From the NCBI RefSeq assembly GCF_017983445.1, contig NZ_JAGOBJ010000001.1, positions 375,632-439,631 of the forward strand: a stretch of DNA of 64,000 bases, in the 5' to 3' direction. Position numbers and translations under genes: made by a program. Below the pieces are notes generated by a model. The model had not been told where the DNA came from. It did not search any database and saw only the letters and a list, made by a program, of their open reading frames with translations. Source of the stretch: Halomonas sp. Lineage in GTDB: Bacteria; Pseudomonadota; Gammaproteobacteria; Pseudomonadales; Halomonadaceae. This document shows, in pieces, positions 9,858-15,993 of this stretch (positions are counted from its first letter, which is position 1; the number at the start of each line of letters is the position of its first letter).

Positions 9858-11014
9858 GCTTGTCTATGACGCTGCGCTGGTTAAAACCTGCCTTCCGAAA
9901 ACGGGGCGCTGCCGCGCTGGTATCCAAAGCTTCCTCGATGGGAATAGCCCAGCATGATGACGTGCCGGTAAAACCACCCAGCGGCTACTGGCGATGGGGC
10001 GAACGCCGGGGTAACGGTGTCAGTATCCTGATCGAGCGGCGCGCGGTTTGGGTCAATAGCGTATTAATGCTGGCGCTGGTGTTGGCCGGTATTGCCTATC
10101 TCTGTCTTGGCAGCCTGACGCTTGACCCGCGTGAGGTGATCAGCGCATTGGCCGGGCAAAGCGATATGATGACCGGATTCATGGTGCAGGAGCTGCGCCT
10201 GCCAAGGCTTATAGCGGCGTGTCTCACCGGTGGGGCGTTCGCGCTGGCCGGGATCCTTATGCAGACCCTTGCCCGCAATCGCCTGGCCACCCCGGGCATC
10301 ATCGGGATCGATAACGGCGCCACCGCTTTTGCAGTGGCCTCCGTGGTGGGGATGAGCGTGTCGCTGGCGCCCTCTGCCATGGCCTTGACCGGTGCCGTTA
10401 CTGCCGCTGTACTCACCTTCGGGCTAGCCGCTGGCAGCGGCACTCAGGGCTACCGTTTTATCGTGGCGGGTATCGGCGTGGGCGCCGTTTTTGGGGCCAT
10501 CACGCAACTGCTGCTGGCGCGGGTAGCGATTGATACCGCCAACGCCGCTTATCCCTGGACGGTAGGCTCGCTGAATGCTCGCTCCGGTGGCTCGGTTCAA
10601 CTGCTGGGCATTGGGCTGGCGCTGGGTTTTGTAGCGGCATTGGCGCTGGCACGCTCGTTGACCATTTTGCGGTTTTCCGAAGCCACGGCCAACGGTCTGG
10701 GCGTGAACGCCAAGGCCCGACGCATTCAGATACTCCTCCTATCGGTCGTTCTGACGGCGCTCGCGGTAGCCGTAGCCGGGCCTGTCGGCATGGTGGGGCT
10801 AATCGGCCCTGAAATTGCCCGCGCGCTGTCTACTCCGCGCCATGTGCCGGTGGTTGCCGCGACGCTTGCAGGCGCGTTGGTGATGGTGCTGGCGGATCTG
10901 GCAGGGCGCACACTGCTTGCGCCTATCGAGCTTCCGGTGGGTATTGTCACCGCGATTATTGGCGGCCCCTGGCTTTTATGGATTTTGATGCGTCCGCAAC
11001 GGAGTCACGCATGA
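9854..11014 (+). CDS. Iron-siderophore ABC transporter permease (FecD-like)
   Basis: Second permease of the importer, about 386 residues, in the FecCD/BtuC family. Motifs parallel those of its neighbour: LRLPRLIAACLTGGAFALAG, QTLARNRLATPGIIGIDNGA and GPVGMVGLIGPEIAR. The N-terminus is longer than usual, with about 65 residues (including RWGERRGNGVSILIERR) before the first helix. The start at 9854 is supported by the ATGA overlap with the previous stop; an open extension back to 9800 is spurious. Its end overlaps the ATPase start by ATGA, giving four tightly coupled genes. Confidence 0.93.
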   Translation: MSLSMTLRWLKPAFRKRGAAALVSKASSMGIAQHDDVPVKPPSGYWRWGERRGNGVSILIERRAVWVNSVLMLALVLAGIAYLCLGSLTLDPREVISALAGQSDMMTGFMVQELRLPRLIAACLTGGAFALAGILMQTLARNRLATPGIIGIDNGATAFAVASVVGMSVSLAPSAMALTGAVTAAVLTFGLAAGSGTQGYRFIVAGIGVGAVFGAITQLLLARVAIDTANAAYPWTVGSLNARSGGSVQLLGIGLALGFVAALALARSLTILRFSEATANGLGVNAKARRIQILLLSVVLTALAVAVAGPVGMVGLIGPEIARALSTPRHVPVVAATLAGALVMVLADLAGRTLLAPIELPVGIVTAIIGGPWLLWILMRPQRSHA

Positions 11015-12543: not shown

Positions 12544-12620
<77 letters not shown>

Positions 12621-12662
12621 TATTCAAACACTTAGAAAAAATTGCTTTTCCTTCCTCGCTGC

Positions 12663-12848
12663 CTATTGCCGATCTTCCAGATTTTTCGTTAGTTTCCTCA
12701 ATGCCTCTTCTGAAAGCTGATAAGCCTTTATCCTAAGATCGGCAGTTTCACTACTGCTAAAACCTTTTGTACCAAACGTGATGCCCAATACTGAATACGC
12801 CGCACTGAAGATGAAATGGTGCGTGGCGTTTATACCCAGCGTAGTGCT
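12663..12848 (-). pseudogene. Fragment of an unidentified protein inside the island
   Basis: A stop-to-stop minus-strand frame of 61 codons without a start codon, ending ALRKLTKNLEDRQ. Composition is protein-like (helical, charged: SETADLRIKAYQLSEEALRK), so it may be the 3' remnant of an island gene. Its 5' part overlaps the integrase remnant antisense. I do not recognise the family. Confidence 0.3.
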
Positions 12849-13018
12849 CTAGAACGAATGACGCTTAAAGCAGCGTTAAAGTGCTACTTGGTCGATATAA
12901 CCCCTACCAAGAAACCAGCAGGCAGAAAAGCGAACGCCTCACGCCAAAGAGTATCGCTATCTACCGCGACAAGCGTTTAAACCGTTTGGGGCGCCGAGGG
13001 GTAATCGACACCGGTTGA
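12795..13018 (+). pseudogene. Tyrosine-recombinase (integrase) N-terminal remnant
   Basis: Two adjoining frames read as the N-terminal arm-binding part of a phage-type integrase. Frame one gives RRTEDEMVRGVYTQRSALER, then MTLKAALKCYLVDITPTKKP, as in integrases with LREALERY..EITPTKKG; it stops at 12978. A shift to another frame near 12935-12945 continues as SIAIYRDKRLNRLG, like the conserved AAYRDERL stretch, and stops at 13016-13018. The catalytic domain (R..H-R-Y) is absent. Position, 174 bp behind a tRNA gene and reading away from it, fits an integrase at an attachment site. Assignment comes from motif memory, not a search. Confidence 0.6.
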
Positions 13019-13106
13019 TGATCTTCTCACGCTCAGCTATCTGAATATCAGTGTTCTAGATATTTCACACGAAGCGATTCAAGCAGTGTTGATCAAATCA
13101 TTCCTT

Positions 13107-14720
13107 TCAGAGGAGTGTAAGAGAACTTGCCATCTCGTCCAATTTATTGGAGAGCGCTTGGTAGGACAGCTTGGGTCGATACTGGGCATCGTAAATAAGC
13201 CCGTTACCATGCCCGTAATAGTTGTGCCAATCGTTAAGCGATGACCAGCGATCGGAGAAGCCCCACATGGTAAACGAGTGCGCCCCCGCTTCGATGCACG
13301 CTTCCAGGTAGCCCGCGTACCACGCCGCTACCGCTTTCGGAGTGGTGGCGAAGATCTTGTGCTGGTTGATATCCAACTCGGATACCCGCACCTCAATGCC
13401 AATGGCACGAAAGCGAGCAATCGCTGAGATAAGGTGCGCCTTGCTGACCGACGTACTGTCCACATCCCAAGTGGCCTGGTACTCAGCGTTCATGTCTTCG
13501 TGCATCTGCAAGCCAATGCCATGAATGGGCACGCCGGCGGTTTGCAACTCGACCACCAGATTGAACAGAAAGTCCTGTTTGTCACCCGCTTCTTCACAGC
13601 CCCACTCGTTAATGAACAGCAGTACGTCTGGATCCACTTCATGAGCTTTACGCAATGCCCGTTCAATATAGCCACGTCCTAATGCCTGAAACCAGACGGA
13701 ATCACGGAGCTGGTCTGTCCAGTCCAGGAACGGCTCGTTAATCAAATCGAAAGAGACCATGCGGCCCTTATAGCGACCGAACAGCATCTCGATATGCTCG
13801 TCGAGGATCTCACCTACTTCGGTAGCGGTGATGGTTCCATCGAGCCAGCCATCCCACAGCCACTGCGGGGTCGCTTCGTTCCAAGCTACCGTATGGCCAT
13901 GCACGTCCATGCCATTACGTTCGGCGTAGTCGATCAGCTTATCCGACTCATAGAAGTCGTAGACGCCGCGGGCAGGCTGGATGAACTGGAATTTCATGCA
14001 GTTCTCAGGGGTGATCTGGTTAAACTCATTGCCCAGAATCGTGCGGTACTGTTCGTCGAACACCATCGGGTAGGTGGCCACCGCGGTACCCATGCGGAAC
14101 TTACCGGCCTTGTCACGCAAGGTGCCCGCTGTCTTAGGCACACTACGCACAGGAGTCTCTTCCACGGTACCGGTAGTGGTGATCTCGGTGATAAGGAACG
14201 TTGCACCCACGTTTGCTTCATCCAGGCTTAGATAAACTACCCCATCGTCAAACAGACCCAGGTCAGATTGTCGGGTAACTTCCACACCGTTGGTCAGGAA
14301 CACAAGCTCGGTGCCCTCACGCTTGAAGGTGTAAATCACATTGGTGCCCACACTGGCAGAAGCATTACCCCCCTCGGTATTGTCAGGGTGGTACAGCGAC
14401 CAGTAACACCAGTCACCATTGACGATCTGGGCTTTGAAGGTACTTGGCGCGTAGTACCACTCATCCTGCACCATCGGGATAACGCCGTGGAACATGAAGT
14501 AAGTAGAGTTGGCGGCGGTCAACGTAGCGGTGATATTGATCTCAAAGTCCCTCGCCACCTGAAAGCGCATCGCCAGGTTAAGGGGCGGGTTGTGTACCGG
14601 TGCATCCACCGAGTCAGGCAACGGTGACAGCTTACGGTCGAGGCCTTCAAACAGCACACCATTAGATTGCACGGTGGCCCCAGAAAAGCCTTCCCAAAAA
14701 GGGAATGGAGAAGAAGACAC
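13107..14720 (-). CDS. GH10 endo-1,4-beta-xylanase with N-terminal beta-sandwich domain
   Basis: Glycoside hydrolase of 537 residues expected to cut the xylan backbone. Residues about 195-525 form the GH10 TIM barrel: FRMGTAVATYPM, NCMKFQFIQPARGVYDF, HGHTVAWNEATPQW, the acid/base Glu in FDLINEPFLDW, and the nucleophile Glu in VRVSELDIN. Residues 1-185 look like a concanavalin-type beta-sandwich, perhaps carbohydrate-binding (WCYWSLYHPDNTEG). I see no signal peptide, which is unusual for a xylanase. The start is GTG with GGAGGT 6 nt upstream. It is the only intact cargo of the tRNA-linked island. Low similarity to housekeeping neighbours suggests acquisition. Confidence 0.9.
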   Translation of the reverse strand: MSSSPFPFWEGFSGATVQSNGVLFEGLDRKLSPLPDSVDAPVHNPPLNLAMRFQVARDFEINITATLTAANSTYFMFHGVIPMVQDEWYYAPSTFKAQIVNGDWCYWSLYHPDNTEGGNASASVGTNVIYTFKREGTELVFLTNGVEVTRQSDLGLFDDGVVYLSLDEANVGATFLITEITTTGTVEETPVRSVPKTAGTLRDKAGKFRMGTAVATYPMVFDEQYRTILGNEFNQITPENCMKFQFIQPARGVYDFYESDKLIDYAERNGMDVHGHTVAWNEATPQWLWDGWLDGTITATEVGEILDEHIEMLFGRYKGRMVSFDLINEPFLDWTDQLRDSVWFQALGRGYIERALRKAHEVDPDVLLFINEWGCEEAGDKQDFLFNLVVELQTAGVPIHGIGLQMHEDMNAEYQATWDVDSTSVSKAHLISAIARFRAIGIEVRVSELDINQHKIFATTPKAVAAWYAGYLEACIEAGAHSFTMWGFSDRWSSLNDWHNYYGHGNGLIYDAQYRPKLSYQALSNKLDEMASSLTLL

Positions 14721-14893
14721 GGGAATACCTCCAAAGAAATGTACCAGTGCGTAGTAGGTCGTACGCTAGGTGGCCTTGTGACTCAATTCCGCTACTCACC
14801 GCCCGTCATTACGACATTCCTTATCGTGATGCCCCTCAGCTTGACCTTAATCTCGCTACATAATTCGCCCTTATCGTTTAACACCAAGCTTAA

Positions 14894-14914
14894 AAATCCT
14901 ACCGGGCTCACCAT
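14894..14914. repeat. Imperfect copy of the tRNA 3' end (second attachment site)
   Basis: AAATCCTACCGGGCTCACCA plus T matches the tRNA 3' end at 18 of 21 positions; all three differences are transitions. It lies 21 bp past the azlD stop codon and would mark the far edge of the inserted element. Confidence 0.7.
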
Positions 14915-14935: not shown

Positions 14936-15274
14936 TCACCCTGCTAGCGCTACCCCTATCAGCACTAGCCCAAACACCGCCACACCCGCTGCCACAGGCA
15001 GGCCCATTGTGCGTACGCGCAGCCATACAAGCAGCGTCACGAATAGCCCGATGGCCGTTGCTGCCCATGAAATAACGCCAGGGTTCACAGGAACGAGTGA
15101 TACGCCGAGCACCGCCGCGATCATCAGCGGGCCTAAGATGCTGATCCACTGAGGAATGCTGTTTAGACCTGTTTCACTTCCCAGGCGGCGCTGCATCCAA
15201 AGAAACGGCACAACGCGGATAAGCAGCGTGCCCACTGCCGAGGCGATTACCGCCAACCAAAGCTCTGCGCTCAT
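14936..15274 (-). CDS. azlD: AzlD family branched-chain amino acid transport subunit
   Basis: Small membrane protein of 112 residues with about four helices (ELWLAVIASAVGTLLIRVVP, GPLMIAAVLGVSL). AzlD works with AzlC as an exporter of branched-chain amino acids and analogues. It overlaps azlC by ATGA and is the last gene of an XRE-azlC-azlD operon. The far copy of the tRNA end lies just after it. Confidence 0.88.
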   Translation of the reverse strand: MSAELWLAVIASAVGTLLIRVVPFLWMQRRLGSETGLNSIPQWISILGPLMIAAVLGVSLVPVNPGVISWAATAIGLFVTLLVWLRVRTMGLPVAAGVAVFGLVLIGVALAG

Positions 15275-15993
15275 GACGTGCTTTTCCTGGGGTGAAATTT
15301 CACCATATAAAAACTGATGGCGCCGCAGGCAGCCGCTAGCGGGATGGCGACGTTGCTCCAGCCGTAAAGGGTAAAGAAGAGAGCGGATGCAATCGTACAG
15401 CCCAAGGCTAATGCCCAGCGCTTATCCGTGACGCGCGGCGCTACCATGGTTAAAAAAAGCGCGGGTAAGGCAAAGGGCATAATCTCTCCCAGAAGCGGCC
15501 AGCGGGCCGTTAATGTTTCTCCTGCGGTGGCGCCTACCACGGTACCCACAATCCATACGCCCCAGGCTAGCAGCGCTACTCCCAAAAACCAGCCAAAGCG
15601 TTCAGCTTCGGGAAGTTGAGGCAGGCGCGTGTGCGCCAGAGCAAAAACCTGATCGGTAAGGCCGTGCATTAGCCAGGGCCAATGGCGGCTGCGGGGCAGC
15701 CAGGCCGCGATGTTAGGGCCGTAAACCACATGGCGCACGTTAATCAGTAGTGTTAACGCGACCACCAGCCACAGCGGCGAGCCCGCGGCGGCCATGCCGA
15801 CGAATAGAAACTGTGAGGCTCCCGCATAAATCAACAGCGATATAACCGCTGCTTCCCAGGTGCTAAACCCTGCCTGTGTCGCCACCAAGCCAAACGAGAG
15901 CGAGACAGGTATATAGCCGCCTAGTAAAGGAATCGCTTCGCGTACGCCGCGCAGTGTCGAACGACCCGAAGTAGGGGTGGCAAGCTCGTTCAT
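15271..15993 (-). CDS. azlC: AzlC family branched-chain amino acid exporter
   Basis: Membrane protein of 240 residues, the large subunit of the AzlCD (YgaZH-like) exporter. Visible family features are the LLGGYIPVSLSFGLVATQAGFS opening (residues 23-44), the YAGASQFLFVGM segment and LLINVRHVVYGPNIAAWLP. It overlaps the upstream regulator and the downstream azlD by four bases each, so all three are coupled. Likely substrates are branched-chain amino acids or methionine. Confidence 0.92.
   Translation of the reverse strand: MNELATPTSGRSTLRGVREAIPLLGGYIPVSLSFGLVATQAGFSTWEAAVISLLIYAGASQFLFVGMAAAGSPLWLVVALTLLINVRHVVYGPNIAAWLPRSRHWPWLMHGLTDQVFALAHTRLPQLPEAERFGWFLGVALLAWGVWIVGTVVGATAGETLTARWPLLGEIMPFALPALFLTMVAPRVTDKRWALALGCTIASALFFTLYGWSNVAIPLAAACGAISFYMVKFHPRKSTS

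Follow-up and report, generated by a model that had tools for sequence, protein, structure and literature searches.

We analysed a 64,000-nucleotide stretch (hereafter the window) of Halomonas sp. contig NZ_JAGOBJ010000001.1, in which an intact tRNA gene (12544–12620, plus strand), the integration target, is followed by a broken integrase, a single xylanase gene and a degraded copy of the tRNA 3′ end. A tRNA search returns anticodon CAT, for which ARAGORN gives the label Met; in E. coli, the five top-listed matches all carry the annotation tRNA-Ile (85.7% over 77 bases), and on account of these matches the Ile2 naming used in the preliminary description is sound. The last 21 bases (12601–12621) recur in the same orientation at 14894–14914 (plus strand), with 18 of 21 identical and three mismatches, all transitions. 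Allowing up to three mismatches, this 21-mer has two matches in the window versus a mean of 0.00 in 100 shuffled windows, which marks the repeat proposed earlier as real. Shifting the query by one base (12600–12620) loses the distal copy from a 3-mismatch search; the shifted copy exceeds three mismatches and the repeat is therefore a short relic, which repeat searching and sister-island comparison identify as what is left of the distal attachment site (attR). The segment is thus bounded by an intact tRNA gene and, opposite it, a displaced 3′ fragment, the arrangement expected of a tRNA island. Beyond attR lie the chromosomal flanking genes azlD (14936–15274, minus strand) and azlC (15271–15993, minus strand), both found by Pfam search.

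The segment adjoining the tRNA (12735–13000, plus strand) is the remnant of a tyrosine integrase, spanning approximately residues 34–139 of a relative's 369-residue frame. Using the intact relative as tblastn query, 12735–12932 aligns to residues 34–99 (76%, one in-frame stop) and 12869–13000 aligns in another frame to residues 79–139 (41% across a 17-residue gap); the gap reflects a 51-bp deletion near 12937, and the C-terminal catalytic part is absent from the window. An earlier claim of a frameshifted N-terminal remnant is borne out by these alignments, but its supposed start 174 bp behind the tRNA is not, the true distance being ~115 bp. The short frames here (12663–12788, minus strand; 12816–12980 and 12881–13018, plus strand) have no Pfam match above cut-off, their one weak match being to an unrelated family (E = 0.042), and the PF00589 profile is silent at the remnant; for these reasons the integrase assignment depends on the intact relatives. 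The protein search suggested in the preliminary description yielded nothing above cut-off through Pfam and a tRNA-tied integrase family through tblastn. The open frame at 12663–12788, described there as a broken minus-strand frame, shows no sign of being a separate gene and was rejected as such: it lacks a Pfam match, and its upstream half overlaps the integrase remnant on the opposite strand.

Intact members of this integrase family reveal a consistent association with the tRNA. Genomes G059 and G036 carry an intact integrase directly behind it (for G059, E = 1.4e-32 to Pfam Phage_integrase, PF00589), and the family is present at E ≤ 1e-40 in 18 of 82 genus genomes. All 12 matches of near-full length (359 or more of 369 residues) start 41–75 bp from the end of the tRNA match, which places them ~50 bp behind the tRNA. 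Partial matches lie beside the tRNA in five genomes (G009, G014, G020, G033 and G063) and one in G068 follows an att copy at a distance of 49 bp. In the phage records searched, the best match to the integrase of the intact relatives reaches 41% identity over 98% of its length (754 records with a match), with no relative above 60% identity, and NCBIfam returns recombinase models only, below cut-off. The window's own genome has no match to the tRNA-linked integrase at E ≤ 1e-40, and has six Phage_integrase matches elsewhere. Because the catalytic part is absent, attR is cut and no such match exists in the genome, the segment's own integrase would not support excision or transfer at present; with a tyrosine integrase beside the tRNA only in remnant form, it appears to be an island remnant and not a working island. 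Another recombinase of the same genome might still help in trans.

Comparison across the genus identifies the tRNA-Ile/azlD interval as an insertion hotspot. The tRNA region and azlC were searched in 76 of 82 genus genomes (G070, G074, G084, G090, G096 and G098 were left out of the second census round). Eight with no or weak azlC match were not entered (G007, G016, G018, G030, G035, G069, G078 and G095), and of the 68 entered 26 were set aside (19 with flanks on different contigs, 7 with another arrangement), giving 42 in which a single contig has tRNA and azlC in the conserved arrangement. The interval is occupied in 41 of these 42, the window's genome included, at lengths of 2.3–62.5 kb (2.3 kb in the window, 2.9–62.5 kb in the other 40; median over the 42, ~20.6 kb). 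Inserts this different in length are the opposite of a common segment in unbroken synteny in all relatives, the finding that had been named in advance as fatal to an island. At least 17 of the 42 genomes (read from printed rows) hold a further 45–74-bp copy of the tRNA end between the flanks in the same orientation, and most second copies start near the anticodon loop; most cover query positions ~136–182, outlining an attachment-site core that runs from the anticodon loop to the tRNA 3′ end (12575–12621, plus strand). The single empty site among the 42 is in G073, where ~21–23 bp separate the tRNA 3′ end from the azlD stop and there is one att copy, just as had been predicted for a relative lacking the element. 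G073 is more distant from the window (dS > 1 at five of the seven flanking genes compared) and both sister genomes are occupied, so that G073 may have lost an insert secondarily.

Some genomes show other arrangements at this site. In seven (G001, G002, G013, G021, G023, G068 and G093), azlC lies on the tRNA contig but is arranged differently, a sign of rearranged chromosomes; azlC has retained an att copy in G002. A parallel reduced case occurs at the same tRNA in G026 (L079:342–3206), a segment of ~2.8 kb in which a single intact methyl-accepting chemotaxis gene is flanked by the tRNA on one side and, on the other, by an att copy differing at 3 of 23 positions.

The window's two closest relatives, G022 and G064, have this xylanase (protein 95% identical) at the same tRNA, within islands of 15.3 kb and 10.6 kb. 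To the right of the xylanase, both have genes for a LysR regulator, an aldo-keto reductase and a short-chain dehydrogenase (SDR; named by eye), followed by a 38-bp att copy (89%) beside azlD. The distal copy noticed in the window is accordingly a conserved boundary, being the island boundary in both sisters. On the other side, the integrase remnant is fused to DNA from just downstream of the xylanase (13001–13106), and junction comparison places the fusion point at the identical position in all three genomes. Between the integrase remnant and the xylanase end, a short stretch common to the three islands (13002–13106 in the window) resembles by eye a methyltransferase gene fragment. The xylanase upstream region (14721–14893) aligns with the sister islands up to a deletion scar, where in the window it continues directly into the final part of attR; the att part farther from azlD is missing, and the deletion ends within attR. 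The join falls at a 5-bp microhomology, CAAAT, which occurs in each of the two parental sequences in the relatives and has one base changed in the window. The left parts of the sister islands differ, G064 having a TonB receptor and a TetR gene with no counterpart there in G022. G022 also contains two remnants of same-family integrases (L078:5236–5763 and 10355–10517) separated by McrBC-like genes (by eye), suggesting tandem insertion and decay.

These comparisons bear directly on two other readings of the segment. The window's short arrangement might be the original one, the LysR, aldo-keto reductase, SDR and other genes having been inserted later beside the xylanase in the relatives. The differing left parts of the G022 and G064 islands do indicate that other gains or losses occurred, but the two sisters have the three genes and the longer att copy in common, and the window's deletion is best seen as derived because its attR is shorter than theirs and is fused to xylanase upstream DNA at a microhomology; an original short form is consequently very improbable. 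On this evidence the window carries the more reduced version of the island, from which the three genes were probably lost. A second reading, in which the repeat arose by chance and a chromosomal xylanase gene is simply surrounded by ordinary intergenic decay, could draw on the copy being short, imperfect and sensitive to a one-base shift. We give that reading practically no credence: no such match is expected in shuffled sequence, the copy sits at the attR position of the relatives' islands, and the single att copy of the empty site together with the sister islands refutes it.

The retained cargo is an intact open frame of 537 residues (13107–14720, minus strand) encoding a glycoside hydrolase family 10 (GH10) xylanase, as first reported (Pfam PF00331, E = 2e-75, 254 bits against a cut-off of 22.1). 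The catalytic domain occupies residues 206–524. E329 and E448, which we take to be the acid/base and nucleophile glutamates of GH10, lie in the motifs NEP and SELDIN. These align with ANE and TEIDI of PDB 1xyz. No Pfam family matches the N-terminal ~195 residues at E ≤ 10, and NCBIfam yields one xylanase/esterase model only, below cut-off. Among the plasmid records searched there is no relative above 60% identity; the best listed are Streptomyces xylanases (~30%), and since their alignment spans residues 28–529 the N-terminal part is shared with these enzymes. We saw no obvious signal peptide by eye. Structure prediction from seven near-identical sequences gives a mean pLDDT of 49.6, and the N-terminal part is modelled, at low confidence, as β-rich.

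Substitution patterns indicate that this gene is under purifying selection. Its dN/dS (Nei–Gojobori) is 0.14 between the window and G022 and 0.13 between the window and G064, with 0.07 and 0.05 for azlC and azlD; selection is thus purifying, though weaker than on the flanking genes. Parsimony with three outgroup copies assigns 11 nonsynonymous and 18 synonymous codon changes to the window branch, a ratio of ~0.2 after site correction (hand estimate). A dN/dS of 0.14 beside a broken integrase fits the original suggestion of a cargo kept while mobility decayed. Synonymous divergence of the xylanase (dS 0.18 to G022, against 0.26–0.39 for seven flanking genes; 0.18–0.21 overall, against 0.26–0.45, leaving out the out-of-frame row '9800') is below that of its flanks, leaving room for recombination between lineages; on this basis the gene's residence at the site appears about as old as the three-species split, or somewhat younger through recombination. 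It was probably already at the tRNA before that split, and its acquisition would therefore not be recent. The proposed comparison of codon use gave no foreign signal: the codon index of the xylanase (0.691) falls among those of seven neighbours (0.644–0.707) and its GC3 (0.66) within the range of nine frames tested (0.58–0.68). Codon use and GC3 were accordingly rejected as marks of foreign origin, a negative result that does not exclude transfer within the genus.

Matches to the xylanase occur in 10 of 82 genus genomes, the window's own included. The protein is near-identical (86–100%) in nine genomes, and the match in G031 is just a GH10 relative at 30%. Nine near-identical copies lie outside the window; two of them belong to the sister islands and five (L097, L125, L126, L127 and L128) lie near a pgaABCD-like operon and an rlmF-like methyltransferase gene (names assigned by eye). 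Operons of the pga type direct poly-N-acetylglucosamine synthesis. The G081 copy is beside another integrase-like gene and the G082 copy is at a further place; the latter (L129:8173–9768) ends a few residues earlier, at 531 aa, which the genome search scores as one TAA inside the aligned stretch. In the three island genomes a PgaC-like gene is on another contig, and no rlmF-like match was found at E ≤ 1e-60. This pattern of copies fits repeated movement within the genus.

Such a distribution raises the question of whether the xylanase reached the tRNA independently of the tRNA-targeting element, as a segment of one gene recombined in from a different genus locus such as that near the pga-like operon. 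Only ~1.65 kb, the xylanase gene and its ribosome-binding site, is common to the different contexts, and five of the nine outside copies share the pga-like and rlmF-like surroundings; all three island genomes, however, place the gene between the same integrase remnant and attR. We regard this origin as unlikely, if deserving of some weight, and it is partly compatible with the decayed-island explanation. More doubtful still is a stronger form in which the gene would travel as a compact ~1.65-kb single-gene unit with similar borders, moved by some means independent of the tRNA integrase, through at least four chromosomal contexts (the tRNA-Ile island, the vicinity of the pga-like operon, the second integrase-like gene in G081 and the further place in G082). 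The borders of the unit are not identical, the integrase-side copy of G081 diverging closer to the gene, and in an alignment of ten copies (the window and nine others) we saw by eye no inverted repeats or fixed ends of a cassette.

The locus is very probably an island with a tRNA-Ile-dedicated integrase that decayed by deletions to an integrase scar and a selected xylanase; the preliminary description of a decayed tRNA island with one xylanase was essentially right, and the relatives confirm it. In the order of events that we infer, an integrative element with its dedicated tyrosine integrase would have entered the tRNA 3′ end in the ancestor of the three species. Ahead of the divergence of the three lineages, the integrase would then have been broken by a deletion that joined approximately its first 140 codons to sequence downstream of the xylanase. 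A second deletion, private to the window lineage and with one end inside attR at the 5-bp microhomology, would have taken out the genes for LysR, aldo-keto reductase and SDR, leaving an element presumably without its own means to move and a xylanase kept under purifying selection. The benefit of the xylanase presumably lies in degrading xylan or xylan oligosaccharides. With the integrase this decayed, its role in delivering the xylanase falls short of proof, and a tandem neighbour may have done so instead; G022 contains two remnants.

Together with its relatives, the window provides a well-resolved case of island decay within one genus, combining an empty site, longer sisters, shared and private deletion junctions and a selected cargo, and the tRNA-Ile/azlD hotspot should be useful for cargo mining in Halomonas/Vreelandella. 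Among the titles listed by a literature search with few subscription journals, none names this tRNA/azlD site. In mechanism, the locus adds nothing new to the accepted picture: the process is well known, and this is a clear, if ordinary, instance of it. Its xylanase has the catalytic domain and the NEP and SELDIN motifs of GH10 endo-β-1,4-xylanases (PF00331; PDB 1xyz and 1n82), from which its N-terminal ~195 residues, lacking a Pfam match, set it apart. The Islander catalogue (PMC4383910) describes an anticodon-centred class of tRNA attachment sites, and islands with an intact tRNA at one end, a displaced same-orientation 3′ fragment at the other and a tyrosine integrase gene next to the tRNA. 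Our locus shares this plan and the anticodon-to-3′ site, but unlike the islands described there its integrase is broken and its att fragment is cut to ~21 bp, and a pipeline that requires an integrase would probably miss it. Grounded or degenerate prophages, as portrayed in a second account (PMC6379469), differ in that no phage structural gene is seen in the window segment; they are alike in their fate, recombinase loss and a resected att site freezing the element in place and later deletions removing its genes.
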